NCBI GenBank assembly: GCA_025463765.1
Contig: JAODBC010000039.1
Span: 62,001 to 126,000, forward strand
Source: Subtercola sp.
Lineage (GTDB): Bacteria > Actinomycetota > Actinomycetes > Actinomycetales > Microbacteriaceae
Length of the DNA: 64,000 nt
Reading direction: 5' to 3'
The position numbers and the translations under genes were made by a program. Position 1 is the stretch's first letter; every line of letters starts with the position of its first letter. Positions 46,927-64,000 of the stretch are shown here, piece by piece. The notes beneath the pieces were generated by a model that saw nothing but the letters and a program-made list of their open reading frames with translations, ran no database searches and was not told where the DNA came from.

Positions 46927-49900
46927 CTACGGCACGACCTTCGCCGTTGCGGCACTCGTCACACTCTTCGAGTCGAAGCCCGTCTGCGAACCCGTCACCG
47001 TAACCGTGAGCGCGAGCCCCTTATCGGCAGCGACCGGCTTGTATGTCGCCGCCGTCGCATTCACGATCGCGACCCCACCCCGCTTCCACTGATACCTCAG
47101 CGTGACCGTCGCCGGCGCCCACGTTCCGGGCTTCGCTGTGAGAGTCTGACCCACCTTCGCGGTTCCCGAGATGGTCGGCGTCGGCGCGGTCAGCGTTCCA
47201 CCCGTCACCACCGCCGTACCCGGGCTGGTCTTCGCGACCGTCGTGTACCCCGTCTTACTACCGGTCACAGTAACCGTGATCGTCTTACCGGCGTCGGCGT
47301 TCACCAGCGTGTACGTCGACGCGGTAGCCCCCGCGATCGCCACGCCCGCCCGATTCCACTGATACCCGAACGTCACCACCGTCGGGGCCCAGGTACCCGT
47401 CGCCGCCGTCAGCTGCTGACCCACCTTCGCCGTGCCCGAAATTGTCGGAGTACCGACCGTCAGAGTGCCCGTCGGCACCACCGCCGTCGCAACACTCGTC
47501 GTCGCCACCGTCGCATACCCGGGCTTCGACCCCGTCACCGTAACGGTCAGAGCCTTGCCCGCTTCGGCCGCGGTCACGGTATACGTAGATGCCGTAGCCC
47601 CCGTTATCGCGACCCCGCCCGCCGACCACTGGTACACCAGCGTCACTACCGCGGGTGCCCACGTGCCAGCCGCGGCCGTGAGCTTCTGCCCGATCGCCGC
47701 CGTGCCGCTCACCGTCGGCACTGGAGTCGCCGTGAGAACATTGGCGGCAACGGATGCCGTCGCCCCACTATCTCGCGACACCGTGTAGTAGCCCGCCTTC
47801 GTGCCCGTTACGGTCACGGTGATCGCGCTCCCGACATCACCGGCCACGACCTTATACGTCGCCCCGGTGCCGATGGGCAAGTTCGCCCGCTTCCACTGAT
47901 AGGTGAACGCGATACCTGTGGGCGACCATCCATTGGTCACGGCAGTCAGGGTCTGCCCGAGAGCCGCCGTGCCCGAAATGGTAGGGGGAGCTGCGGTCAG
48001 GCTGAGCTGCGTCGGTTTCGGCACGAGCACCGCGTTTTTCGCCGCAACCGCCTGGGCCGCGGTGACGGTGATCGGGTCGGCCGCCGTGAGCGTCGCCTTG
48101 GCACTCGAGAACTGGTCGGTGTACTTGAACCCACCCGTGCCGTCGTAACTGTTGCCCGTCGAGTAATCGGTGAACCCCACCTTGTAGGTGCCAGGTGCGA
48201 GCCCGGGCATCGAGTAATTACCCGACCCGTCTGTGCGTGTGGCGCCCACCTGGGTGTAGGTCGAGCCCGTCTGTTGCCAGATCGGCACGGTGATGCCGTC
48301 GAGCTTCTCACCTTGAACGTTGCTCACTGTTCCCGAAATGGATGCTCCGCTCGAGAGCGTCGCATTCTTGCCGGTAACGGCTTGACCCGCTGTGAGCGTA
48401 ATCGCAGTCGCTGTCGCCAGGCTGGTCTTGCCGGGCCACCACTGTGGCGCAAGAGAACTCAAGCCCTGGTATCTCGTCGACGAATAATACGACAGCTTGT
48501 AGGAACCTGCCGCCAGACCCGTTACGAGATAGTTTCCGTGCTGGTCGGTATAGTCATAACCCGCGATCGATCCGTCGCGGTTGTTCGCCACCACGAACTC
48601 GTACTGCATCGGTCTTGCAGGGCTAGAGGAGTCGACGACCGTTCCAGCGAGAGATGCCCCGCGGTGCCGAGCAATGTTCATGCCCGTCACAGATTGATTG
48701 GCAGCAACAGTGATGGTGTCGGCCGCGGCCAGCGTCGGTTTGCCACCGAACCACTCAACGGCATACCTCGTGTCTTGGCCGAACGATAGCTTGTAGGTAC
48801 CTGCCGGCAGCGACGAGAGCACGTAGCCGCCATCGGATTCCGTCGTGGTGGATGCGACTATCACCCCAGCCGTCGTATAGGCCTGCACCTGGTTACCGCC
48901 GCCGATGCCCGTTCCGAACGTGGCATCGGTTTCGACCCCTGAAATCGAACTTTTCAGTAGCGGCGAAAGCACGGCGTTGAACCCGGTCAGGTTCTGCGAT
49001 GCCCCCACAGTGACGGGGGTCGCGGTCGCTTGGCTGGTTTTTCCGTTCCACCAGCTGACAACGTAACCGTCAGCGACGTACTCCAGCGTGTAGGTATCTG
49101 CGGGCAATCCGGTGATCGTGAAATTGCCGGATGCGTCGCTGTCGGCGCGTTCGAAGGAGTAGCCATTGGAGCCGAACGCATATACCCACGCGTCTGCGAG
49201 ATTGGCGGAGGGACTGCCTGCCTTAATGTTTCCCTTCAGCGTTGAGCCTTTGATCAGGGTGACATTCTTGCCTGTGATCGCCTGACCAGCGGCGACCACG
49301 ATCGCGGTCGAAGCCTGCAGGGTGGGTTTGTTGCCGTACCACTGCCCAGCGTCTGAACCCTCGCTCGTCGACACCTGCAGTCGATACGACCCGTCAAGCA
49401 ACCCAGACACGGTGAATGCACCCGTCGCCGAGTCCACCTGGGCCGAAGCAACGTATCCGCCCGCGGTCGTGTAGACAGATGCAGTCGCGTATCCATACGG
49501 ATAACTCGCATTTCCGACGGTTCCATCGGAATTGGTGACGATGCCCGAGATCGACCCTGCAGGAAGAAGATTTGCGTTGGCGCCCGTCACCGTTTTTCCG
49601 GACGAAACGGCGATCTTGTCGGCGGTACCGAGGCTCGCACGGTTGGTGCTGTACTTCGTTACGAATCCTCCTGCACTGAACTCGAGTTTCACAAAGCCCG
49701 GAGTCAGGCCGACGAGGGAGTACGACCCCGTGGCATCCGTCTGCGTCGACGCTTCGTAGATGCCGTTCGGGTCGTACGCCTCGACCAGTGACCACGTCGC
49801 CGTAGGAGCCGCGCCCGCTACGGTGACCACACCGCTCACCGTTGCGCCAGCTCGCAGTGAGACATTCTTTCCGGTCGCGGTTACGTTGCCGGTAACGCTC

Positions 49901-52602
49901 ACCGCTGTAGCCGCATCGAACGTGGTTGCTCCGAAGAACTGAGGGAGATAGTTCGTGTGATAGGCCGGGGTGAACTGCAGCTTGTACGATCCGGCTTGCA
50001 GGCCGCTGACGGTGTAGGTGCCGTCGGCCGCGGTGGTAGCCGAGCCAGCCCAGACATCGGCCACAGTGTAGGCAGCGACAGACACGCCGGCTATCGGCAG
50101 AGCGGGCGCCGTGGAAGACGACACCGTTCCCGATATGGCACCACCCAGAGCCAACGTGGCATTCCGAGCTGTGATGACCTGCCCGGTCGTGACGTCGAAA
50201 GTGGTTGCCGTGGCCAAGTCGGATTTTGCCCCCCACCACTGTTCGGTGAACGCTCGGTTCACCTGCGGCTGGAAGTCGAGTGTGTACGTTCCGGCCGACA
50301 CGCTATTGAACGCATAATTGCCGGAACTGTCTGTGTAGACCGAGGTCACGATGTAACCAGCCGACGGATTGACGAGCGAGACCATTACGCCGGAGAGAAT
50401 CGACGGTGTAGAACCGGCGCCTTTGACGGTGCCGCTGATCGATGCGGTTCGCGACAGCACGAAGTTCTTACCCCCGACCGCCTGTCCGGCAGTCAGAGTA
50501 ATCGGATCGGACTGCACTCGGGCGATCTTGCCGCTATACCACTGCGACAAATAACCCGAGTTCGACGGTGCGTCGACGTGCAACGAGTAAGAGCCGGCCG
50601 GCAGACGGTTCATGGAGAAATTTCCCGAGCTGTCGGTGTCAGCGTAGGTGGTCTGCAGGCCGGTTGCGGTGACGATATCAACTTCAGCCCCGGCCACCGG
50701 AACACCTCCTACGCCAGTCACCGTTCCTGAAACCGTTGCGCCTGCTGTCAACACTGCATTTTTGCCGGTCACGACGGCACCCGCTGCCACAGTGATCGGC
50801 GCGGCCGTGGTCAACGAGCTCTTGTCGTCGAACCATTCTGAGAGATAGTTAGCTGCGGTCGAGAATTGCAGCGCGTACGTTCCTGCAGGGAGACCGACAA
50901 GGTTGTAATTTCCTGCCGAGTCGGTCGTCGCTGTGAGCGTGGCCCCCGCGCCCGAACCCGAGGTCGGTATCGCTTGCACGGTCGCGCCCCCGAGGTTAAC
51001 CGTCGACGAGCCTTGCCCTTTGACATTCCCGCTGATCTGCGCGCCGACACTGAGCACCACGTTCTGACCTGACAAGGTTTGGCCTGCGGAGACTGCTAGA
51101 GCTGTCGCGTCGGCGAAGCTCGACTTGTGGTTGAACCATTCAGGAGCGTAGTTGTCACTCGTTGAAAACCGCAGCTTGTAGGAAGCGCCGACCAATCCGA
51201 TAAACGAGAAGTTGCCGGCGGCATCTGTTGTGGTCGTCCGTTGAGCCGAGTAATCCCATGAGGCGCTGAAAAGTTCGACCTTCGCGCCAGCAAGATTGGT
51301 AACGCCCGCCTTCACATTTCCGCTGATGACCGCTCCAGCCGCCAGCGACGCATTCTTGCCGGTAACTACCTGGCCCGTGGTCACCGTGATCAGGGTGGCT
51401 GACTCGTAATCGGCGACGTTCCCGTAATACGCAGGCAGATAGTTACCCTGCGGGGTGAACTCGAGACGATACGACCCTGCCGCCAGCCCCGTGATCGTAT
51501 AGGCCCCAGAAGCATCGGTGGTAACGAAGTCAGGATACGAGCCTGTGCCGTTGGGTGAGGCCTGCACGGTCACCCCCGAGAGGGCAGCTCCAGCGGTTCC
51601 TGTGACCTTGCCCGAGACCGTCGCTCCGACGGCGAGCACAGCATTCTTGCCCGTCAGATCTTGACCCGCAGAGATGGCAACGTAATCGGCCTCCGAGAAG
51701 GAACTCTTACCCGACCACCACTGGCTCAGATAGTTCGCTTGGCCGCTGAAGTAAAGCCTGTAAGACCCCGTCGACAGGCCGTCGATTGTGTAGTTGCCGC
51801 TTTCATCGGTGTCGCCACCGCCGACGTAGTTGTAGGTGGAATCGTAGGCGTAAACGTACACGTTGCTGAGCCCGCCCGTGCCGCTTCCGGTTACCTTGCC
51901 AGAGATCGACGCTGCTTTGACGAGAGTGATGTCTTTGGTAGTGACCTGACCGGCCGTCACGATGATGGGAGACGAAGACAACGCGGAGTTATCGCCACCC
52001 CAGGTCTGGGTCAGATACCCGTTGAGACCGAACTCGACGGTATAAGCCCCCGCCGCCAGACTGCTGAACGAATACGTACCATCGGTGCCGGTGCCGGTGG
52101 TCATGTATTGCATCGGCGAGCCGCCCCATTTCCAGAGGTAGATGTACACCATAGAAAGCGCAGACGCCGGTGAGCCACCCGTCACGGTACCTGAAATGCT
52201 TCCCGGCGGCCCTGAAGGAGTCGGGGTCGGTGACGAGGTCGGTGTAGCGGTGGGGAAAGACGTCGACGTCGGGAACGACGTAGAGGTCGGGCTCGGACTC
52301 GAGGTGGGCGTCGACGTCGGCGTCGAGGAAGGCGTCGAGGTCGGCGTCGAGATCGATGTCGATCTAGGAGTGGGCGTCGACGTCGAAGTCGAACTGGGCG
52401 TCGGCGACGAGGTCGGCGTCGGTGACGAGGTCGGCGTCGGCGTCGACGTCGGCGTCGAGCTCAGGCTCACGGCGGTGGCCTCCGGCTGCGCCGCCTGTGC
52501 CGCCACCGGGGCAAGTACTAGCGCCGCCCCGACGGCAATCGTCGTGAAGATGCCAGCCAGCGCCATGCGCGCGGATCGTTTGGTGCGTCGTGGAGCAGTC
52601 AT
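46927..52602 (-). CDS. Giant secreted repeat protein (carboxypeptidase-regulatory-like and Ig-like domains)
   Basis: A protein of 1,891 residues. A signal peptide (RMALAGIFTTIAVGAALVLAPVAAQA) is followed by a ~90-residue Ser/Thr/Pro-rich stalk, likely glycosylated. Fourteen repeats of ~95 residues then follow, each built as SGxV-x-G-V-x(15-20)-TDxxGNYxxxGLxAGxYxLxF-x(10)-QWWxGKxS-x-ATxITVxAGQxVTGKNAxL. These resemble CarboxypepD_reg/Cna-B-like beta-sandwiches. Four ~85-residue repeats end it: PTISGTAKVGQxLTA-GTWAP-VTLxYQWxRxGVAIxGATASTYTxxxADxGKxxTVTVTGSKxGY. The protein stops at AKVVP with no LPxTG or helix, so it is released or held non-covalently. ATG at 52602 follows GGGGGA. It probably serves as an adhesin or matrix protein; no enzymatic motif is seen. 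Confidence 0.85.
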   Translation of the reverse strand: MTAPRRTKRSARMALAGIFTTIAVGAALVLAPVAAQAAQPEATAVSLSSTPTSTPTPTSSPTPTSSPTPSSTSTSTPTPRSTSISTPTSTPSSTPTSTPTSSPSPTSTSFPTSTSFPTATPTSSPTPTPSGPPGSISGTVTGGSPASALSMVYIYLWKWGGSPMQYMTTGTGTDGTYSFSSLAAGAYTVEFGLNGYLTQTWGGDNSALSSSPIIVTAGQVTTKDITLVKAASISGKVTGSGTGGLSNVYVYAYDSTYNYVGGGDTDESGNYTIDGLSTGSYRLYFSGQANYLSQWWSGKSSFSEADYVAISAGQDLTGKNAVLAVGATVSGKVTGTAGAALSGVTVQASPNGTGSYPDFVTTDASGAYTITGLAAGSYRLEFTPQGNYLPAYYGNVADYESATLITVTTGQVVTGKNASLAAGAVISGNVKAGVTNLAGAKVELFSASWDYSAQRTTTTDAAGNFSFIGLVGASYKLRFSTSDNYAPEWFNHKSSFADATALAVSAGQTLSGQNVVLSVGAQISGNVKGQGSSTVNLGGATVQAIPTSGSGAGATLTATTDSAGNYNLVGLPAGTYALQFSTAANYLSEWFDDKSSLTTAAPITVAAGAVVTGKNAVLTAGATVSGTVTGVGGVPVAGAEVDIVTATGLQTTYADTDSSGNFSMNRLPAGSYSLHVDAPSNSGYLSQWYSGKIARVQSDPITLTAGQAVGGKNFVLSRTASISGTVKGAGSTPSILSGVMVSLVNPSAGYIVTSVYTDSSGNYAFNSVSAGTYTLDFQPQVNRAFTEQWWGAKSDLATATTFDVTTGQVITARNATLALGGAISGTVSSSTAPALPIAGVSVAAYTVADVWAGSATTAADGTYTVSGLQAGSYKLQFTPAYHTNYLPQFFGATTFDAATAVSVTGNVTATGKNVSLRAGATVSGVVTVAGAAPTATWSLVEAYDPNGIYEASTQTDATGSYSLVGLTPGFVKLEFSAGGFVTKYSTNRASLGTADKIAVSSGKTVTGANANLLPAGSISGIVTNSDGTVGNASYPYGYATASVYTTAGGYVASAQVDSATGAFTVSGLLDGSYRLQVSTSEGSDAGQWYGNKPTLQASTAIVVAAGQAITGKNVTLIKGSTLKGNIKAGSPSANLADAWVYAFGSNGYSFERADSDASGNFTITGLPADTYTLEYVADGYVVSWWNGKTSQATATPVTVGASQNLTGFNAVLSPLLKSSISGVETDATFGTGIGGGNQVQAYTTAGVIVASTTTESDGGYVLSSLPAGTYKLSFGQDTRYAVEWFGGKPTLAAADTITVAANQSVTGMNIARHRGASLAGTVVDSSSPARPMQYEFVVANNRDGSIAGYDYTDQHGNYLVTGLAAGSYKLSYYSSTRYQGLSSLAPQWWPGKTSLATATAITLTAGQAVTGKNATLSSGASISGTVSNVQGEKLDGITVPIWQQTGSTYTQVGATRTDGSGNYSMPGLAPGTYKVGFTDYSTGNSYDGTGGFKYTDQFSSAKATLTAADPITVTAAQAVAAKNAVLVPKPTQLSLTAAPPTISGTAALGQTLTAVTNGWSPTGIAFTYQWKRANLPIGTGATYKVVAGDVGSAITVTVTGTKAGYYTVSRDSGATASVAANVLTATPVPTVSGTAAIGQKLTAAAGTWAPAVVTLVYQWSAGGVAITGATASTYTVTAAEAGKALTVTVTGSKPGYATVATTSVATAVVPTGTLTVGTPTISGTAKVGQQLTAATGTWAPTVVTFGYQWNRAGVAIAGATASTYTLVNADAGKTITVTVTGSKTGYTTVAKTSPGTAVVTGGTLTAPTPTISGTAKVGQTLTAKPGTWAPATVTLRYQWKRGGVAIVNATAATYKPVAADKGLALTVTVTGSQTGFDSKSVTSAATAKVVP

Positions 52603-52748
52603 CGGTCCCCCGTTATGGCTTTCGCGGTCGCTTCGCGGCAAGCCAAAACTGTGTAGAACATGTGTGACCCCCACCCCAGAAGATAGCGATCTTCACATCA
52701 AGCGGTCACCCCCCAGAACAGGGCTGGTTTTCGGCGAGCGACGGGAGG

Positions 52749-55019
<2,271 letters not shown>

Positions 55020-55173
55020 CTGCGATGCCTCTCCCCGGCTCGTCTCCCCATTCGCCTCTGTCTTCAGCCCGGCGGGGCCGCCGGGCCAACGGGCCACGAT
55101 GAACTCGCGGCCCGTCACGTGCCGCTCTGGGCGACGCGACGACAGAAGCGTGTCTCACGATACTAGGAGCACG

Positions 55174-55578: not shown

Positions 55579-56487
55579 TCAGCTACTCGCCACCGCCCCC
55601 ATACTCAGAATCGTGTTCAGCGCCAGCACCACGATGAGCCCGTTGAAGAAGAAGCTCAGCACCGAATGCCACACCACCGTGTAGCGCAGCCGCGTGCTCA
55701 GCACCTCGACATCAGACGCCGCGAACGACGTGCCCAGCGTGTACGCGAAGTACACGAAGTCGACCACGCCCGGGTTCGGCGTATTCGGAAACCGCATCGG
55801 CGGCGTCGCCGACCTGAAGTAGTTCTGCTGGTAGATCTGCGCGAAGCCCCAGTGCAAGAACCCCCACGACAGCAGCATCGCCCACACCCCGACCACGTTG
55901 AAGAGCGGCCCGTAGTTGGGATCGTTGCGCAGCGTCAGCAGCTGCACTGCCGCCACCACTCCGACCAGGCTCGCCGAGAACGTTCCGATGAACGAGATCA
56001 CCCGCACCGGCAGGCTCAGCTCGAGCCGCGACGGGCGCCCCTCGGCCGTGCGCCGCAGGCGGCTCAGGATGCCCAGCAGCAGCACCGCGACGACCGCGTA
56101 ACTCGTTCCGAGCGTGCACCACAGCAGCTGGGAGAACAGCGACGAGTCGTCGTCGTCTGCCGAGATGAACGTGACACCGAGAATCACCATGACGATCTGA
56201 ACCGCCACGCTGATCACGAACACCGCGATGACCACGCGGCCCCGCCGCGCTTGCACCTCGCCGTCGCGGTAGGCCCGGGCATCCATCTCTCCCCCACCCG
56301 CGCCCCCGCCCGCGCCCCCGACGCCCCCGCCGGCGAGACCGTCATTTTCGGCCGAGACCCCCCGCTGCAACGGCCGATCTCGGCCAGAACTGACGGCCTC
56401 GGCGTTCGCTGGGCCCGGGGCTGGGCCCGAGTCGGGGCCCGGAGTCGGCGAAGGCGCCGGCGAAGGCTCGGAGTCGCCCGAACTCAC
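55579..56487 (-). CDS. DUF1345 membrane protein with low-complexity N-terminus
   Basis: A 302-residue protein. Residues 1-~75 are Pro/Gly/Ser-rich and disordered. Five or six membrane helices follow. The region NPGVVDFVYFAYTLGTSFAASDVEVLSTRLRYTVVWHSVLSFFFNGLIVVLALN is the DUF1345 signature, which resembles the pore loop and last helix of potassium channels. The function is not known. The start codon overlaps the stop of the signal peptidase gene in a GTGA, so the two are translationally coupled. Together with the HprK-like gene they form a tight three-gene unit. Within the leader a GGCCGAGA/TCTCGGCC inverted repeat is visible on the DNA (56347-56394). Confidence 0.85.
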   Translation of the reverse strand: MSSGDSEPSPAPSPTPGPDSGPAPGPANAEAVSSGRDRPLQRGVSAENDGLAGGGVGGAGGGAGGGEMDARAYRDGEVQARRGRVVIAVFVISVAVQIVMVILGVTFISADDDDSSLFSQLLWCTLGTSYAVVAVLLLGILSRLRRTAEGRPSRLELSLPVRVISFIGTFSASLVGVVAAVQLLTLRNDPNYGPLFNVVGVWAMLLSWGFLHWGFAQIYQQNYFRSATPPMRFPNTPNPGVVDFVYFAYTLGTSFAASDVEVLSTRLRYTVVWHSVLSFFFNGLIVVLALNTILSMGAVASS

Positions 56488-57602
56488 AACCCGCTCCAGT
56501 GCCCCGGCGGCAGCACCACCGCGAACGCCCGGCCCACCACGTCAGAGCGACCCACCATCTTCAGGCAGTCTGACGTCGACGCCGTGGGCGGCCTGCCCCG
56601 GCACGCGTAGATGGAGTCGTTCGAGTTCGACCGATGGTCGCCGAGCACGAAGTACTGCCCCGCCGGAACCGTCACCGTGGGAAAACAGCGCTGCGACTCC
56701 GGCGTCGTCGTGCAGTCGAGCACGCCCGGCTGGTACGGATAATCCTCGTAGATATACGGCTCATCGAGCGCCACCCCGTCGACCGTCACACGACCGAGAG
56801 CATCGCAACACGACACCGTCTGCCCCGGCCCCGCGATCACCCGCTTCACCAGGGTATGGTCGAGCGACGGCCCGACCCCGACGATTCCGCTCAGCCATTT
56901 CACCGCGTACGACAGCGGATTCGACGGCGCCGGTGCCGGCTCCCCCCACAGCGACGAGGCCGTGAACACCACAACGTCGCCCGGCTTCGGGTTCGCCCCG
57001 AACTCGTAACTGATGCGGTCGACCAGAATACGATCGCCCACCGCCAGCGTCTGCTGCATCGACCCCGACGGAACGTAATACAGCTTCACCACGAACGCCT
57101 GCACCAGCGCCAGCACCACGAAGGCGGCAACCAGGTTGAACCAGAAGCTGCCCGTGACGCGCCGGATGCCCGTGCGCTTGCCCCCCGCATGCTTGCGAGC
57201 TGGCGCAGTACTCCGGGCCGGGTCCACCGGCTGCCGACCGCCGCTCGCAGCACCCTCGTGGGCATTCCCGTCAGCACCCCCCACAGAAGGCGCGGCACCC
57301 GCAGCACCCGCCGCTCCCGACCGCGCTCCCCCGCCGACCGCACCATCGCCGCCCGCGTTACCCGACCGCGTTCCCGCCTCTGCCGTCACCTCACCATCCG
57401 GCGCTGAACCGCCCGCAGAACCCCGCGCAGAACCCGCCCGCGCTCCCGCGCCGGCCCCACCGTCCCCGCCCGCGCTACCCGACCGCGCTCCCGCCTCTGC
57501 CCTCACCTCACCATCGGGCGCTGAACCGCCCGCAGAACCCTGCGCAGCACCCGCCGCGCCAGCGACCGGGCCCGCTCCCCCGCCCCCGCCCCCGTCACTC
57601 AT
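56484..57602 (-). CDS. Signal peptidase I with repetitive N-terminal extension
   Basis: A membrane-bound serine-lysine protease that removes signal peptides of exported proteins. After a ~135-residue Gly/Ala/Asp-rich cytoplasmic extension made of repeats, one helix (SFWFNLVAAFVVLALVQAFVVKLYYV) leads to the catalytic Ser in PSGSMQQTLAVGDRILVDR. The catalytic Lys is in LVKRVIAGPGQTV. VPAGQYFVLGDHRSNSNDS and the C-terminal VVGRAFAVVLPPG complete the fold. Three cysteine positions (SCCD, DCTTTPESQRC, YAC...DC) suggest disulfides on the outside. ATG at 57602 overlaps the HprK-like gene by eight bases. As the operon contains only this protease, DUF1345 and the HprK-like protein, it may be a dedicated rather than a general enzyme; that is inference. 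Confidence 0.9.
   Translation of the reverse strand: MSDGGGGGGAGPVAGAAGAAQGSAGGSAPDGEVRAEAGARSGSAGGDGGAGAGARAGSARGSAGGSAPDGEVTAEAGTRSGNAGGDGAVGGGARSGAAGAAGAAPSVGGADGNAHEGAASGGRQPVDPARSTAPARKHAGGKRTGIRRVTGSFWFNLVAAFVVLALVQAFVVKLYYVPSGSMQQTLAVGDRILVDRISYEFGANPKPGDVVVFTASSLWGEPAPAPSNPLSYAVKWLSGIVGVGPSLDHTLVKRVIAGPGQTVSCCDALGRVTVDGVALDEPYIYEDYPYQPGVLDCTTTPESQRCFPTVTVPAGQYFVLGDHRSNSNDSIYACRGRPPTASTSDCLKMVGRSDVVGRAFAVVLPPGHWSGL
57363..57555. repeat. 117-bp tandem repeat coding the signal peptidase extension
   Basis: CGACCGCGTTCCCGCC (57363) and CGACCGCGCTCCCGCC (57480) begin two copies of a 117-bp unit (39 codons) with high identity through GAACCGCCCGCAGAACCC. The repeat is in frame and encodes two copies of a GSAGGSAPDGEV-type block. 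Confidence 0.8.
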
Positions 57603-59115
57603 CGCGCCCCACGCCCCGCCCAACAACAGCCAGCAGCCCGATCTCCACCAGTTCCCCGACCGCAGCGCCCACCAGCCCCTCGGCCAAACCCTCACCCGGG
57701 TCGCCGTGCACCTCCACCACCGCGTTCACCAGCTGCCGCCGGCTGCGTGGCGCAAGCTCCACCGCCTCGATGATGGTCGGAGCGATGCCGCCGAGCACCC
57801 GAACCGTGGTTCCGCTGAGCACGATCATCGACTCCCCATCACGCACAGCGTCAGCGTACTCGGCGCGTAACAGCTCCTCGTCAGACGTGTCAGTGTTCTC
57901 AGCGGTTGCTGGGGGTGCAGCCGCCGCAGGTGCAGCCGCGGCGGGTTCCGCCGCAGCAGCAGCGCCCGCAGCGGCGCCCGGCGCACCGGCCGCGCCCCGA
58001 TCATCCACCACGTTCGCACGCGCAGCACCCCGAGCATCCACTTCTCGCGCACCGAGAGCACCCCGAGCATCCACATCGCCCGCGCCCACTCCCGCGCCGC
58101 GCACCAGCGCGCCCGACCCGTGACCCGCCGCCCGCGCCTCGGCGAACAGCCGCGCGAACACCTCAGGCAGCGTCGCCGCCTCGCTGTACGTCACCGCGCG
58201 CAGCCCCCCGCACGCCGCGAGCACCTGCACGAGCCGGCGCAGCGGCTTCTGCCGCTCGGGCAGGTAGCTGATCTGCGGCACGAGTTCTTCGACCGACTCC
58301 GCCACGCTCACCGGCCGGATGCTCGGCGCACCTTCATGCCCAGGCTGCCGATCGAGCATCACCACCCCCACCAAGCGCAGCGCACCCGACGGCGCATTCA
58401 AGCCCAACTCCGACGGCGAAACCTGGTCTTTGTAGTACTCGGGAGGTGGCTGCTTCACCGAAAGGGGCTTGCCGTACGCCAGCACCCCGAGGTCGTCTTG
58501 CACGGCCAGCGTCTCGTCGGTGACATACTCGAACACCTTTCCCAGGGCGATCGATGCCGTCGTCTTTCCGCGACCCGAGGGCCCGACGAACGCGATCACA
58601 TCGCCCGTCGCGGGGTCGGCGACACCGCCCGCGTGAAACATCAACAGCTCGGCCCGCCGCGCATCGATCGCCAACCGCGTGATGAGCCCCGAGAGCTGGT
58701 CGGCAAGCGCCCGGTACGTGGGCGCTGTGGCGCGCTGCTCCGCCGTTTCGGCTGCCCCAGTCAGTTCGCCTACGTCACTGTCGGCGGCAGCGGTATCGGC
58801 AGCCGCCGCAACGGCAGTAGCAGCCGAAGCGGCAGCGCCTTTAGCGGTATCGGGATCGGCCGCCGCAGTAGCAGCAGCAGCCTCGGCAGCCGCCGCCGCA
58901 GTAGCAGCAGCCCCGATCGCGACGGCGCGCCGTACCGACGCATCCTGCACAGAGGCGCGGATGATCGTGGCCCCCTCAGGCGCGACCGCTACCTCGCGCG
59001 CCTCACACCACTGCCACGACTCCAGAAAGTGCCGGGCATCCGTCTCGCCCACACCCTCGAGCACCACGGCGAACGGCTGCTGCAGCGCAGTTAGCGTGAC
59101 CCACGACCCCATCAC
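57595..59115 (-). CDS. HPr-kinase-like P-loop protein fused to a PqqD-like domain
   Basis: A 506-residue soluble protein of unusual domain build. The N-terminal ~60 residues form a small domain, followed by Ala-rich repeats (~68-118). Then comes a kinase-like core: AELLMFHAGGVADPATGDVIAFVGPSGRGKTTASIALG (Walker A GPSGRGKTT, ~178) and EYVTDETLAV, which matches the HPr kinase/phosphorylase C-terminal fold (its DD is DE here). A second Ala/Gly low-complexity region spans ~345-410. The C-terminal ~90 residues (DAVRDGESMIVLSGTTVRVLGGIAPTIIEAVEL...VGAAVGELVEIGLLA) fit PqqD, the RRE fold that binds leader peptides in RiPP pathways. It likely phosphorylates or handles a peptide or protein partner. 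It is first in an overlapping operon with signal peptidase I and DUF1345. Confidence 0.72.
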   Translation of the reverse strand: MMGSWVTLTALQQPFAVVLEGVGETDARHFLESWQWCEAREVAVAPEGATIIRASVQDASVRRAVAIGAAATAAAAAEAAAATAAADPDTAKGAAASAATAVAAAADTAAADSDVGELTGAAETAEQRATAPTYRALADQLSGLITRLAIDARRAELLMFHAGGVADPATGDVIAFVGPSGRGKTTASIALGKVFEYVTDETLAVQDDLGVLAYGKPLSVKQPPPEYYKDQVSPSELGLNAPSGALRLVGVVMLDRQPGHEGAPSIRPVSVAESVEELVPQISYLPERQKPLRRLVQVLAACGGLRAVTYSEAATLPEVFARLFAEARAAGHGSGALVRGAGVGAGDVDARGALGAREVDARGAARANVVDDRGAAGAPGAAAGAAAAAEPAAAAPAAAAPPATAENTDTSDEELLRAEYADAVRDGESMIVLSGTTVRVLGGIAPTIIEAVELAPRSRRQLVNAVVEVHGDPGEGLAEGLVGAAVGELVEIGLLAVVGRGVGRDE

Positions 59116-59160
59116 CCCAAACTACCGTGCCTGCGTGCCGCATCTTCTCCACCCGAACGA

Positions 59161-59310
59161 GCGGCACACAAATCGGCGCCACCCAGCCTGGGGGCACCCG
59201 CCCGAGCGGCACTCGCGTGAGCGCCACCTAACCTGGCGGCACCCCCCTGAGCGGCACTCGCGCGAGCGGCACCCAGCCGAGCGGCACCCGCTCGAGCGGC
59301 ACCCTCTTTA
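59161..59310. repeat. Ten exact 15-bp tandem units in the promoter gap
   Basis: From 59161 to 59310 every 15 bases begins a new GCGGCAC(C/T)C-type unit (for example GCGGCACTCGCGTGA, GCGGCACCCAGCCGA, GCGGCACCCGCTCGA). None is lost or gained in length. It lies in the gap 59116-59478 between the divergent HprK-like and Tat-protein genes. On the minus strand the units would read VPLxR, but stops break the frame. Confidence 0.85.
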
Positions 59311-59478
59311 GGGCTTTAGTGCTGGTCAGAGGTCGAATTACAGTCGTTAACAGACCCACGACCCTTGACGCAGCGAGGGCATTCTCGAAGGTCTTTTCTC
59401 GCCCATGCATCGACGCTCGCGAACGCAGCCGACGCTGCTCGCGAGCGCTGACACCCGACCCGAAATGCGACTCACCCC

Positions 59479-60009
59479 ATGGCCCTGCGCTCTCACGACA
59501 CCTCACTGCCCGCGAACCTCGACATCACCGATACCCCCAACGGCGCCGATACCCCGAGCGCCGTCGACACCCCCTCCACCGGTTTCAGCCGCCGCACCCT
59601 CGTCAAGAGTGCCGCCTGGTCGGTGCCGGTCATCGCACTTGCAGTCGGCGCCCCCGCCCAGGCCTCGTCGAAACCGCACGACTGGACTCCTTGCATCTGC
59701 GGCGGCAAGAACGGATCGGGCCCTTACGGCCAGAACGACAACGGGCAGTACCTCGTCGAAGAGCACCTGCTCATCATCACGTACGACCGAATTCCGCAGA
59801 ACACCATCGACGTCAACGTTCGTTTTCTCGACGGAACCAGCAAGAACTTTCACTACGACTTCAAGAACTGGCCGCTCACCCCGGGCTCGAACCAGCTCAC
59901 CATCAACCTCGCCGGCTATTCCACCACCGGCCCCGCCTGGGTGCAGGTCGACGGCTTCAACTCCCACTACTCCGACCCGAAGTGCCCCGCCCCCTCCACC
60001 AACAAGTAG
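59479..60009 (+). CDS. Tat-signal secreted protein of unknown function
   Basis: A 176-residue protein. Thr/Asp/Pro repeats (DTP-type, residues ~17-33) precede a twin-arginine signal SRRTLVKSAAWSVPVIALAVGAPAQA (~37-62), so it should be exported folded and cleaved near AQAS. The mature ~115 residues begin with WTPCICGG, hold a central beta-rich part (HLLIITYDRIPQNTIDVNVRFLDG, NQLTINLAGY) and end with DPKCPAP. Three cysteines in a small secreted beta protein suggest a disulfide and perhaps metal or cofactor binding. I do not recognise a family. Its nearest neighbours are the divergent HprK/PqqD-signal peptidase operon and a response regulator downstream on the same strand. Confidence 0.72.
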   Translation: MALRSHDTSLPANLDITDTPNGADTPSAVDTPSTGFSRRTLVKSAAWSVPVIALAVGAPAQASSKPHDWTPCICGGKNGSGPYGQNDNGQYLVEEHLLIITYDRIPQNTIDVNVRFLDGTSKNFHYDFKNWPLTPGSNQLTINLAGYSTTGPAWVQVDGFNSHYSDPKCPAPSTNK

Positions 60010-60132: not shown

Positions 60133-61038
60133 ATGACGGTAATGGAGATGTCGGGGCAGTTCCAAATCGCAGTCATCATCGAAGACAGCCCGGACATCAG
60201 CGGGCTCATCGATACCGTGCTCAGCGCTGCCGGCTTTCGCACTGTCGTGACGACCAACGGTCTCGACGGCATCGATGCTGTGCGTGAACATTCGCCCGTC
60301 ATCACCACGCTCGACGTCAACATGCCGGGAATCGACGGGTTCGAGACGGCTCGGCGCATCCGCAGTTTCAGCGACACCTACCTGATCATGCTCACGGCCC
60401 GCGACGACGAGATCGATACCCTCCAAGGCCTTGAGGCCGGCGCCGACGACTACCTCGTCAAGCCCTTCCGCCCCCGCGAGCTGCGCGCCCGCATAGCGGC
60501 CATGCAGCGCCGGCCCCGCACCATGGTGAACCCGGGCGAGCAGCGCGCCTCACCCGACGTGACCAGCACCGGCACCACCACCGGCACGAGCTCCGACACC
60601 ACCAGCACCGGCACCGGCACGAGCTCCAGCCCTGGCTCCACCACCGGCACCGGTGAGCCCGCAACCGGCACCTCGGGCCGTGCGAGCTATCCGAGCGACG
60701 ACGGCTGGGTCGGCTACAACGGGCTTTACCTCAACGAAGAGATGCGTCTGGCAGAGAAAGACGGCATTCAGCTCGAACTCACGCGTAGCGAGTTCAGCCT
60801 GCTGGTCGCACTTGTGAACAGCGGCCGTCGCGTTCGCAGCAAGACAGACCTCGCGCTGCTCTTGCGCGGGGAATCCGCATCACCATCGCCGTACGTGAGC
60901 GAGAGCGACAAGCGGGCGATCGAGGTGCATATCGTCAATCTCCGGCGCAAGCTGGGTGACGGCCTCCCCGACCCACGTTTCATCGAGACGGTTCGCGGAA
61001 TCGGCTACCGAATGGCCGCAACGCACGACGCATCCTGA
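60133..61038 (+). CDS. OmpR/PhoB-type response regulator with repetitive linker
   Basis: A transcription factor controlled by phosphorylation. The receiver domain (residues ~10-125) has the acidic pocket IIEDSPD, the phospho-acceptor Asp in TLDVNMPGIDG (~57), LTARDDE and the Lys in YLVKPFRPRELRARI (~110). A Thr/Ser/Gly repeat linker of ~45 residues (~140-185; TSTGTT, TGTGTS) separates it from the winged-helix DNA-binding domain (~200-300) with LTRSEFSLLVALVNSGRRVRSKTDLALLLRG and AIEVHIVNLRRKLGD...IETVRGIGYRM. Candidate starts at 60133, 60142 and 60148 cannot be resolved. The histidine kinase at 62340-63971 is the obvious partner, separated by a GGDEF-like gene on the other strand. Confidence 0.9.
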   Translation: MTVMEMSGQFQIAVIIEDSPDISGLIDTVLSAAGFRTVVTTNGLDGIDAVREHSPVITTLDVNMPGIDGFETARRIRSFSDTYLIMLTARDDEIDTLQGLEAGADDYLVKPFRPRELRARIAAMQRRPRTMVNPGEQRASPDVTSTGTTTGTSSDTTSTGTGTSSSPGSTTGTGEPATGTSGRASYPSDDGWVGYNGLYLNEEMRLAEKDGIQLELTRSEFSLLVALVNSGRRVRSKTDLALLLRGESASPSPYVSESDKRAIEVHIVNLRRKLGDGLPDPRFIETVRGIGYRMAATHDAS

Positions 61039-61074
61039 CGACCGCTGCGAATGCAGCCGAGCCCACGTCGAACC

Positions 61075-62268
61075 TCAGGGCGTGTCTGACAATTGCGTGC
61101 CGGCTGCTCGTGGCCCATGACCGACCTCGATGTGGTTGCCGCCCTCCGCTCGAGTCAGCTGCGTGAGCTCATCGAGCGCCGTCGACAACACTGTCATGTC
61201 GTAGCCGAAGGCGTCGGTGCTCACTACACCGAAGCTCGCCGTCGCCCGCAGGCTCTGCGACTCGTCGATGGGATGGTCGACCAACGCGTCTCGAATGCGC
61301 CCGGCGATCTTCTGTGCGTCATAGTCGTTGGTCACGACCATGACGATCACGAACCTGCCGGATCCCGGATGCCCGAGAAGAGCACCTGTGGGGGCAACCG
61401 CCCGAACGACTCTCGCCACCTGGAGAATGACCCCGTCGCCGAAGGTTCGGCCCAGCGCAGTGTTGATCTCCGGCAGGCTGTCGATGTCGATCGCGATCAT
61501 CGCCAGTCGCTCCGACCGGGCTGCTGCCCGCTCGAGCCAATCCTGCCACTGCTGCGCGAATGCCGAAGCCGAGAGCAAGCCGACCACCGAGAGGGTTCCG
61601 ATCGTCAGATCTCCGAGCGCGGAGGCTCCCGCCCGCTCCACCTGCAAGATCGAGAGCGAGATAGTGCCGAGTAGCACGAACGCGGTGACGAGAATGGTCG
61701 AAATCTCCGGCCCGAAATACGTCACGAACAGCTCACCCTGCGGCCCGCCCAAGGCGAAAGCAATGGTTCTGAGCCCGTAGTAGATCGCGATGACCCACAG
61801 CGCTCCAGCGAGAATTCGAGCGTTCACATTGCGCAACAGACGCCCACGCAGCGCCTCGAAACCGGCCAGGCCCGAGAAGACGGCAATGACGGGGAAGAGC
61901 ACGAGCGAGCCCTGCCACGCGCCTTGACTCTGGGCAGTGACGATGCTCGCGACGGCGACGGCGGCCGCCGCGAGTGCCACGACCACGATGTACGGCCGAC
62001 GACCGTTGAACGCCCGGCATCCCGACCAGATCATTCCGCTGACGAGCGAGTAAGCCGCATTGCCGATGACGAGAATCCAGCTCGCATCGGTTGTTCCGCC
62101 CCAGATTCCGAAACAGATGACTGAGAGTATTGCGCCGATGAAAGACACGCTCCACAGACGACCGGCCAAGTCGTTGCGCCGGGTCGCCGTGTTGAGCACG
62201 AAAGAGAAGCCGCACAGCACGACGACGATTCCGTCGAAAACGAGAAGGGTCTGCAGGTCGAGCCTCAC
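61075..62268 (-). CDS. Membrane protein with degenerate GGDEF domain
   Basis: A 397-residue protein with six to seven N-terminal membrane helices (residues ~5-215) and a C-terminal GGDEF-like domain (~225-385). AMIAIDIDSLPEINTALGRTFGDGVILQVARVV is the usual substrate/metal block. The active-site loop is HPGSGRFVIVM where an active cyclase has GGDEF, so the catalytic acidic residues are lost. No RxxD inhibitory site is visible five residues upstream. It is therefore unlikely to make cyclic di-GMP and may instead bind GTP or c-di-GMP, or act as a scaffold. GTG at 62268 begins RLDLQTLLVFDG. It lies between the response regulator (convergent) and the histidine kinase (same strand, 71 bp upstream), so it probably belongs to their signalling unit. 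Confidence 0.85.
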   Translation of the reverse strand: MRLDLQTLLVFDGIVVVLCGFSFVLNTATRRNDLAGRLWSVSFIGAILSVICFGIWGGTTDASWILVIGNAAYSLVSGMIWSGCRAFNGRRPYIVVVALAAAAVAVASIVTAQSQGAWQGSLVLFPVIAVFSGLAGFEALRGRLLRNVNARILAGALWVIAIYYGLRTIAFALGGPQGELFVTYFGPEISTILVTAFVLLGTISLSILQVERAGASALGDLTIGTLSVVGLLSASAFAQQWQDWLERAAARSERLAMIAIDIDSLPEINTALGRTFGDGVILQVARVVRAVAPTGALLGHPGSGRFVIVMVVTNDYDAQKIAGRIRDALVDHPIDESQSLRATASFGVVSTDAFGYDMTVLSTALDELTQLTRAEGGNHIEVGHGPRAAGTQLSDTP

Positions 62269-62339
62269 CTGTACAGCGCCTTTCGGTCAGTCTGTCTGCG
62301 GCTGCGACCCGCAGTCATGTCGCCACTTGCCAGGTCGAT

Positions 62340-63971
62340 TCAGGCCAACTCTAGCTGTTTGAGTGGTAGTCGCACCACGAACTTCGAGCCGACTCCGGTG
62401 GTACTGCTCACCTCGAGTTCGCCGCCGTGCTCTCGCACGATATTGCGGCTGATGCTCATGCCCAGACCCGAACCTTGGATTCCCGACTGTTGCACCGCCT
62501 CCGCCCGAAAGTATCGGTCGAAGATCTTCGCCTGTTCGAACTCGCTGAGCCCGATGCCGGTGTCACTGACGGCAATGGTGACATCGGTGTTGGTCGCCTG
62601 CACATCGACGTGCACCGATCCACCGGCCTTGTTGTATTTGATGGCGTTGGTGAGCAGGTTGTCGACGACTTGTCGTAGCCGGAATCCATCCGCGACGATT
62701 CTCGCGGGGGCGAAGGCCTCGCCGGTCACGGTGATTCCGTGCTCCTCTGCGAGCGGGTGCCGAGCCTGAATCGAGTCGGTGACGATCTGATTCACGTCGC
62801 ATTCCTCGAACTTCATCGCGAGCAAGTGATCGGAGTCGGGGGCGGTGACCCGTAGATCAGCGATCAGCGCGAGCAGCCGGTCTGCGTTCGACGAGGCGAT
62901 CTCCAGGTACGACGACGTGACGGGGTTGAGGGAGGGGTCTTCGAGTGCCAGGTCGAGGTACCCGAGAATCGAGGTCAGGGGCGAGCGCAATTCGTGCGAG
63001 ACGATGGCAACCAGGTCGTCACGGGCCCGAATGGCCGTGATTTCACTGGTGACGTCTCGAGTCACCATGACGCCGCCGTCGTGCTCACCATCGGCGCCGA
63101 CGATCTGCCGAGCCGAGATCGAGAGCGCCCTGCGACGCTCGCCCGGTTCGCCCACCCACACGACGAAGTCGCTGTAGACCCTTCCGAGCGCAGCCTGCCG
63201 GTACGGTCGCAGCTCGTCGGGCATCGGGGTGACACGATCCGCGTAGTAGAGCGTGCTCGGCTCCGGGCTCGTCGCAGAGGCACCGAATTCGGCCGCGAGC
63301 CTCTCTGACGTTCGGTTCACCAGGGTCTCGCGACCGTGCTTGTCGAAGGCCACCACACCGAACTCGACCGAGTTCAATACCGCATCGAGTGTTTGTTCCT
63401 GCCGCCGGGCACGACGATGTGCCGCTTCGAGCAGGTTCGCCTGCTGTCGCAGCAGGGCCAGCTGGGCGGCCGAGCTCTTGGCGCGAACGAAGCTCACCGC
63501 AGCAATGAACGCGAGGGTGACGGGCACAACGATGAGGGCGGGGGCGTTCGCCATCACGCTGACCGAACCGCCGACGAAGGCGCAGCCCCAGATCAACGCG
63601 GCAGACCCGATCGACCCGAAAATCGCGCCTCTGACACCGAACTCAGTCGAGAGCCAGATGATGGGAAAGACGAAGAGAATAGACGCGGCCAGATCGATGG
63701 ATGCGGGATGCGCGGTCGCACCCAGCACTATCGATGCCGCGGCCAGCATGTCTGCGATGGGCACGGCCACGATCCAGCCCGGCGTGATCTCACCCCAGGG
63801 CAGAACAGCGGCGAGTGCGGTGACGACGAAGACGGCGACGCCTCCGCTGAAGAAGAATGGATTGACGACCGTGCCGCTCTGCATGATGAATTCGGCGCAG
63901 ATCAGGAGAAGTGCCGTGGCGGCGAAGGGCAGTTGCGACTGGAACACGGCGCGCTCGCGCCGTTCCTGCAT
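62340..63971 (-). CDS. Membrane-bound sensor histidine kinase with PAS-like domain
   Basis: A 543-residue kinase. Five to six membrane helices (residues ~12-165) form a MASE-like sensor. A coiled coil (AQLALLRQQANLLEAAHRRARRQEQ) is followed by a PAS-type domain (~200-320; VLNSVEFGVVAFDKHGRETLVNRT). The HisKA box is IVSHELRSPLTSILGYLDLAL (~325). The ATPase has N-box LLTNAIKYNKAGG, G1 SDTGIGLSEFE, F-box KIFDRYFRAE and G2 GSGLGMSISRNIV, and ends in VGSKFVVRLPLK. ATG at 63971, with GAGGGG nine bases upstream, is preferred over GTG at 63992. It is the likely partner of the regulator at 60133. The signal sensed is unknown. Confidence 0.92.
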   Translation of the reverse strand: MQERRERAVFQSQLPFAATALLLICAEFIMQSGTVVNPFFFSGGVAVFVVTALAAVLPWGEITPGWIVAVPIADMLAAASIVLGATAHPASIDLAASILFVFPIIWLSTEFGVRGAIFGSIGSAALIWGCAFVGGSVSVMANAPALIVVPVTLAFIAAVSFVRAKSSAAQLALLRQQANLLEAAHRRARRQEQTLDAVLNSVEFGVVAFDKHGRETLVNRTSERLAAEFGASATSPEPSTLYYADRVTPMPDELRPYRQAALGRVYSDFVVWVGEPGERRRALSISARQIVGADGEHDGGVMVTRDVTSEITAIRARDDLVAIVSHELRSPLTSILGYLDLALEDPSLNPVTSSYLEIASSNADRLLALIADLRVTAPDSDHLLAMKFEECDVNQIVTDSIQARHPLAEEHGITVTGEAFAPARIVADGFRLRQVVDNLLTNAIKYNKAGGSVHVDVQATNTDVTIAVSDTGIGLSEFEQAKIFDRYFRAEAVQQSGIQGSGLGMSISRNIVREHGGELEVSSTTGVGSKFVVRLPLKQLELA

Positions 63972-64000
63972 CGCTCTCGACCCCTCGACCACCCCTGAAT

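Follow-up and report, generated by a model that had tools for sequence, protein, structure and literature searches.

What does a kinase that carries its own peptide-recognition domain act on? The question is raised by a 64,000-nucleotide stretch of Subtercola sp. (contig JAODBC010000039.1, positions 62,001 to 126,000; hereafter the window). Here a gene for a protein joining an HprK-like P-loop domain to a PqqD-like domain, or RRE (recognition element of ribosomally synthesised and post-translationally modified peptides, RiPPs), overlaps in series with genes for a signal peptidase I and a DUF1345 membrane protein, and faces the gene for a small protein with a twin-arginine translocation (Tat) signal (Table 1). 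Comparison with other genomes suggests an answer that is wider than this locus. The kinase with its fused recognition domain appears to act on secreted proteins of a large class, marking them by means of a fixed motif within their export signal, and the mark is probably a modification of the serine with which the finished protein begins.

The Tat protein belongs to a large class defined by its signal peptide

The whole Tat protein encoded at 59479 was searched against 12 genomes. Its body was found only in G009 and G005 besides its own genome, but many other proteins were matched through its signal peptide. The class was gathered by a motif scan requiring RR, W and P, which was then turned into a profile. 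Its members (hereafter cargos) share the signal RR-x7-W-x2-P-x8-P-x4-S with fixed spacing. RR..W..P was present in 186/187 distinct class open reading frames (ORFs), with 7 residues from RR to W in 166, although the conservation of RR, W and the proline at +3 is partly due to selection by the motif scan. The twin arginine, hydrophobic region and AxA-type site of a Tat signal were all found, with an Ala-rich end before the serine. Counting without gaps from W, the second proline (+12) was present in 96% and the serine (+17) in 94% of 185 sequences, and the serine was present in 93% of the 145 sequences outside profile building. With a profile lacking the serine column, serine was found in 169/178 members, compared with 48/320 (15%) in an approximate control set of other AxA-type signals. 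Threonine at W+17 stood at 0%, and serine did not exceed 13% at any position from +18 to +39. Six cargos of this genome were read, five of which have the serine at W+17 and one of which has it shifted by a residue.

The initial annotation had placed the recognition region in the first 35 residues of the Tat protein. The conserved motif lies instead in the signal peptide (W47, P50, P59 and S64). Its description as a cysteine protein did not carry over either, as cysteines were rejected as a class feature at a mean of 1.3 per mature part. The mature parts (177) range from 64 to 524 residues with a median of 148, and form 104 BLAST groups at 1e-4, which may be distantly related. Ten cargos were scanned without a Pfam match at 0.01, and the 59479 protein likewise had none. 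Choice-of-anchor G was found in 2/10 cargos scanned (L080 4927-6576 and L075 10591-12024), neither of which has a C-terminal anchor. A C-terminal membrane segment was present in 0/179 complete cargos, and the two of these 179 with an LPxTG-like string also have no membrane segment. Class matches number 7 in this genome and 41 in G098. A side observation from the latter genome (locus L076) is that 7 of its 41 class members lie within 10 kb of the kinase.

The class co-occurs with the kinase and lies near it

A raw kinase tally of 94/120 genomes of the family was set aside. Twelve genomes matched at 9.4e-58 or better (with a further copy in G140 at 2.7e-57), and the remaining matches were at 4.2e-6 or worse and mostly covered the P-loop only. 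The class was found in 12/12 kinase-positive and 2/108 kinase-negative genomes, one of these two being marginal (Fisher, 8.6e-15), in a test that is biased because the profile held peptides from some of those genomes. For a sample of the order, the profile was made from 31 peptides, all from this family, whose source genomes lie outside the sample except for our own, which was excluded; the kinase cut-off was 1e-12. Here the class was found in 19/21 kinase-positive and 4/127 kinase-negative genomes (Fisher, 4.1e-18). Moreover, kinase and class vary together within genera: G024 has neither and G120 has both, and the same contrast was seen for G130, G195, G209 and G237 against G223, for G029 against G211, for G036 against G157, and for G033 against its kinase-positive sisters.

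Cargo genes are also found close to the kinase gene. In the two samples, 20/133 (0.81 expected) and 30/95 (0.67 expected) lie within 10 kb of it, and genomes with at least one class gene at this distance number 10/12 and 10/19 (0.76 and 0.65 expected under uniform scatter). In four f10 genomes, 3 to 6 consecutive cargo genes adjoin the kinase. The genetic link between kinase and class is therefore strong by co-occurrence and proximity, and the coupling of the fusion to a Tat-exported protein, originally drawn from one gene, holds far beyond it. In a kinase search of 346 genomes of the phylum, matches were strong in G000 (this genome), G145 and G176 and weak in twelve more.

The fusion sits in exopolysaccharide loci

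The fusion was found in 11/12 genomes of the genus, our own included (G007 is without it). Together with 15 loci from other genera, these gave 26 kinase loci for comparison, none longer than 20 kb. They are exopolysaccharide loci, often with NTP_transf_5 (15 loci), a separate PqqD protein (13), Wzz/BY-kinase (17) and a low molecular weight (LMW) phosphatase (19); 14 loci encode signal peptidase, 16 a class cargo and 6 an exopolysaccharide sugar transferase. NTP_transf_5 (PF14907) was present in 6/7 genomes searched. In this genome it is encoded elsewhere (G000:C58:11167), on a contig that also carries a separate PqqD, Wzz, phosphatase and sugar transferase, as well as one more cargo gene. No plasmid homologues of the fusion were found.

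Peptidase_S26 matched two loci in this genome, one of which is the operon copy. As all 12 genomes searched hold a stronger signal peptidase elsewhere, the operon copy is a second one. This extra peptidase lies directly beside the kinase in 7/9 kinase-positive genomes (5.4 kb away in G021 and missing from G003), and adjoins the fusion or is one ORF off in 10/11 genus loci, L032 being without it. It thus does look dedicated, as had been supposed. It is of the bacterial type, TIGR02228 matching at only 5.8e-4 against the TIGR02227 value in Table 1.

The four genes of the window do not travel as a unit. DUF1345 together with a 59479-type cargo was found beside the fusion in only 3/11 genus loci (the window's own, L002 of Subtercola lobariae and L031). 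DUF1345 was beside the fusion in 0/15 loci from other genera; at 3/26 overall it is a local addition, and is probably a lineage-specific neighbour and not part of the core.

Three arrangements are recorded as observations in their own right. At L233-L236 (f10 genomes), LMW phosphatase and HprK-like domain share one ORF, followed by a separate PqqD and then a row of Tat cargos. At L268 (7807-11762) there are two consecutive kinase-PqqD genes, the kinase match of the second being weaker and split. At L039 (15248-17913) a cargo gene faces the second signal peptidase, and the next genes, judged by eye, resemble tatA and tatC.

Both domains of the fusion are recognisable among its relatives

An alignment of 11 relatives divides the fusion into four parts: an N-terminal region, the HprK-like P-loop domain, a linker of low complexity whose length varies, and about 85 residues that form a C-terminal domain. 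Searched alone against NCBIfam, the window protein matched HprK_rel_A at 0.038 and PqqD_rel_X at 0.15, both weakly and at the right positions. Its relatives give a clearer picture. HprK_rel_A matched 11/11 close members (best 1.4e-4) and 16/16 diverse kinase domains (best 3.1e-9), and matched more members than any other NCBIfam family. PEPCK_ATP, which belongs to the same P-loop superfamily as HPr kinase, matched 10/11 members, and was the only, weak, Pfam match of the window protein. The 60 PDB matches listed for the whole fusion or the kinase domain were P-loop proteins of ABC type, other P-loop proteins and the PEPCK 1ii2. The same residues recur without variation in 39/39 distinct kinase domains: one His, the Gly, Gly, Lys and Thr of Walker A, an Asp-Glu, a Lys-Pro, a Lys and an Arg.

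For the C-terminal domain, PF05402 (PqqD) matched 9/18 PqqD domains (best 1.7e-7), with no match to the close relative of the window protein. Fused and stand-alone PqqD domains aligned in hhalign with an E value of 1.5e-10, and the top three PDB matches of an 18-copy profile were PbaB1 (9x90, 0.0022), LppB (9x8z, 0.0028) and TbiB1 (5v1u, 0.016), which are leader-binding RREs of lasso peptides and of linear polyphosphorylated peptides (LPPs). Homology to this fold is therefore detectable by sequence. PqqD_rel_X (TIGR04353) scored 13.0 bits for the window protein and 25.1 for the separate PqqD of L080, below its cut-off of 35. In 28 cases the RRE was detected as part of the kinase ORF; in 9, mainly at f10 loci, it has an ORF of its own. 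The proposed union of an HprK-type domain with a PqqD domain is thus borne out for both partners once relatives are included, and the fusion is more than chance because it recurs in other genera and families.

Likeness to the LPP pathway

The closest parallel is the LPP pathway of Bacillota (Nat Commun 2026). In its published description (PMC13381572), a SipW-like peptidase, an RRE, an HprK-like kinase, an NTP transferase and an exporter are encoded in capsule loci, and the leader YxxPxVLxHQxIxFETxxS stands on precursors of 35 to 200 residues. The published RRE motif is [Y/W]xxPx[LVIFA], and LppK is reported to modify S3, not S3T or S3Y (PMC13381572). The lack of threonine at W+17 fits this preference. 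Counted along the published leader, the aromatic residue Y-16 lies 18 residues from S3, compared with 17 from W to Ser here. Both systems thus combine a signal peptidase I, an RRE, an HprK-like kinase (recognisable here by sequence, below the HprK_rel_A cut-off) and an NTP transferase (here PF14907) in capsule or exopolysaccharide loci with an aromatic-x2-P leader motif, a conserved Ser 17 to 18 residues on and variable C-terminal parts.

There are also differences. The LPP RRE is discrete, whereas here kinase and RRE are mostly fused. The LPP leader uses Y and stands on short precursors; here it uses W, has an Ala-rich end in place of FET and is a Tat signal peptide on full secreted proteins. 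The LPP peptidase is archaeal-type (Ser/His/Asp) and ours bacterial-type (Ser/Lys), and export by Tat is proposed here, whereas LPP has an MsbA-like transporter. LPPs are called restricted to Bacillota (PMC13381572), and the present system is from Actinomycetota. By sequence, then, it would work like LPP, but departs from it in the fusion, the type of peptidase, the leader consensus and the host phylum. LppB N33 and D70 help to choose Tyr, and swapping their PbaB1 counterparts changed the choice between Tyr and Trp (PMC13381572). Among the 18 RREs here, the site of N33 holds S, A, D, G, T or Q, never N, and that of D70 holds L, A, V, I, R or H, never D.

Other known systems share fewer traits. 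Lasso peptide clusters of the paeninodin type (PadeK/ThcoK, PsmK/PsmN, B1 RREs) have an HprK-like kinase, an NTP transferase, an RRE and a WxxP leader, and in them PsmK and PsmN add first a phosphate and then a sugar to a Ser (PMC9266682). That Ser is C-terminal in the peptide, whereas the proposed one here is N-terminal in the mature protein. No lasso cyclase or B2 protease was found among the scanned neighbours, no HMM search having been aimed at them. The HPr-rel-A system (TIGR04352 HprK_rel_A and TIGR04353 PqqD_rel_X) shares the kinase superfamily and a PqqD partner, although scores here are far below both curated cut-offs. Sortase/LPxTG and exosortase/PEP-CTERM systems each use one machinery and one short shared signal for many different cargos. 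The class resembles them in its shared short signal, its many cargos and the choice-of-anchor G proteins among them, and is unlike them in that the signal is N-terminal and C-terminal membrane anchors are lacking. Our literature search found no paper joining Tat signals with RREs or HprK, and a paper on RREs mentions neither kinases nor signal peptidases in its available portion (PMC12710340).

Proposed mechanism

We think it probable, from the co-occurrence and proximity of kinase and class, their shared loci, the homologies of the domains and the fixed motif, that this is an LPP-like pathway acting on whole Tat-exported proteins, with the fusion as recognition-and-modification enzyme; in our best reading it would be an actinobacterial, Tat-coupled relative of the LPP pathway. 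The RRE would bind W-x2-P in class signal peptides while the proteins are still cytoplasmic, and the HprK-like domain would phosphorylate the near-invariant Ser 17 residues past W, predicted to occupy position +1 of the mature protein or an adjacent one. The NTP_transf_5 protein, which has its own PqqD, may add a sugar to the phosphate. The folded protein would then be exported by Tat, and signal peptidase I (in this genome the second copy) would free the marked N-terminus, which is perhaps linked or sorted to the polysaccharide that these loci produce.

A more far-reaching version is doubtful as a whole. It would make this a general modification and sorting system of Actinomycetota, in which the Tat signal is also a RiPP leader, the fusion reads W-x2-P within it and phosphorylates the N-terminal Ser, NTP_transf_5 adds a sugar, and the protein is covalently joined through the phosphosugar to cell-surface polysaccharide. 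Up to 41 proteins in one genome would then be anchored by their N-termini, much as LPxTG and PEP-CTERM proteins are by their C-termini.

If the pathway proposed here is true, RiPP leader recognition and protein export, two fields that have been kept apart, would be joined, one sequence being both export signal and modification tag. It would also suggest a role for the HprK-like kinases, RREs and NTP transferases of polysaccharide loci, and yields 187 collected cargo ORFs that share a fixed motif and in which the modified residue is predicted. What LPP and paeninodin products do in such loci is stated to be unknown (PMC13381572).

Points against the pathway and alternative explanations

Several results weigh against the LPP-like pathway. 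The kinase assignment rests on HprK_rel_A, at 13.1 bits for the window protein and 27.1 for the highest among the matches listed, far below the cut-off of 200 bits, together with the invariant residues; the window protein alone scores weakly in HMM searches. P-loop matches to many ABC families were also seen, some members matching these about as strongly as HprK_rel_A. Of the two profiles by which the domains were to be recognised, PqqD was found and Pfam HPr_kinase_C was not, being absent from the 24 families matched by the 11 members at E values up to 1. A PDB search with the kinase domain or whole fusion gave no HPr kinase among the matches listed. The motif ends in Asp-Glu, differing in its fourth residue from the His-Lys-Asp-Asp with which lasso kinases are described (PMC9266682).

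The genomic evidence also has its exceptions. The Fisher values treat genomes as independent, though they are related. G035, G110, G202, G216 and G229 have class members and no detected kinase (G110 showed P-loop matches only in the family search), 7/9 class genes in stretches fetched from these five genomes keep the Ser, and no kinase was found near discordant cargo genes in 20-kb stretches. A class match in G061 from the family search was not reproduced in the 20-kb stretch check. Conversely, no cargo was detected in kinase-positive G234 and G248. Signal peptidase is missing from 12/26 mapped loci and NTP_transf_5 from 11/26. Lastly, the active site of signal peptidase faces outside, which makes the LPP proposal, that the RRE offers the cleavage site to the peptidase, hard to apply here.

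In one alternative, the kinase, RRE and NTP transferase would modify some other small precursor peptide in the polysaccharide locus. The Tat proteins would be matrix proteins that merely travel with them, and it would be the Tat translocase or the signal peptidase that recognises their motif. Class members do persist without a detected kinase, and LPP precursors are separate ORFs of 35 to 200 residues in capsule loci (PMC13381572). No other recurrent precursor family was noticed in 22 loci, in a scan that covered only ORFs of 60 residues or more. The class signal reproduces the RRE motif together with its distance to the Ser, and cargo genes stand in rows beside the kinase. Moreover, the Ser is kept in 21/24 cases in f10 genomes with no signal peptidase in their kinase loci, and hence the preference of a dedicated peptidase is an unlikely cause. 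We regard this explanation as unlikely.

The company of Wzz/BY-kinase and LMW phosphatase, which elsewhere form a phosphorylation circuit, might suggest that the fusion acts on a regulator of polysaccharide assembly or a sugar carrier rather than a ribosomal peptide, with the RRE docking another protein. However, this leaves the WxxP...S motif and the co-occurrence with the cargo class unexplained, and is improbable. It is a little more improbable still that some genomes of the order use the signal class as a lineage trait and that shared ancestry explains its match to the kinase: both are concentrated in one order, among non-independent genomes, but they vary together between sister genomes and their proximity is about 25 to 45 times expectation. 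The four-gene system of the initial annotation, with DUF1345 as channel or anchor and the single Tat protein as sole substrate, is very improbable and largely refuted by the neighbourhood comparison, since its layout is confined to three loci and class members are many per genome.

Features of the window

The positions of all four genes were borne out by an ORF check, as were the three overlapping leftward genes. The fusion and signal peptidase genes overlap by 8 nt (57595-57602), the peptidase and DUF1345 genes by 4 nt (56484-56487), and the divergent Tat gene is separated from the fusion by 364 bp. Translation of the fusion probably starts at the conserved ATG at 59112, and the peptidase ATG (57602) sits inside a longer ORF. 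On Pfam the peptidase and DUF1345 were clear.

Table 1. Coordinates of the kinase operon, the Tat gene and features within them.
Feature	Position	Strand	Details
HprK-like kinase / PqqD (RRE) fusion	57595..59115	-	505-506 aa; 11-member alignment, HprK_rel_A and PDB matches
HprK-like P-loop domain	58126..58728	-	residues about 130-330; residues invariant over 39 domains
Walker A GPSGRGKTT	58558-58584	-	within HprK-like domain of fusion
TDET motif	58510-58521	-	within HprK-like domain of fusion
PqqD-like / RRE domain	57616..57873	-	residues about 415-500; PDB profile matches 9x90, 9x8z, 5v1u and hhalign 96.9%
Second bacterial-type signal peptidase I	56484..57602	-	Peptidase_S26 9e-34, TIGR02227 2.9e-29, Ser and Lys motifs
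DUF1345 membrane protein	55579..56487	-	PF07077 4e-32
Tat-exported cargo protein, W-x2-P class	59479..60009	+	signal-class membership
Leader-like signal of 59479 protein	59590..59670	+	RR 59590, W47 59617, P50 59626, P59 59653, S64 59668
Repeat array, core GAGCGGCAC	59159..59302	.	six copies at 15-bp multiples in divergent spacer

The copies of GAGCGGCAC stand 15 or 45 bp apart between the fusion and Tat genes. Across the whole window the + strand has 9 copies of the core, and L002 has similar copies. The array is possibly a shared control region; a search for sigma-70-type promoters found none.

Beyond the operon, a secreted-looking protein of 1915 aa (46927-52674, - strand) has 14 CarboxypepD_reg stretches and a Ser/Thr/Pro-rich N-terminus, and adjoins a Wzy_C protein (52749-55118). 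Directly after the Tat gene lie genes for a response regulator, a GGDEF protein and a histidine kinase (60133-63992), a trio that stays beside the Tat gene only in L031 among the 22 loci compared.

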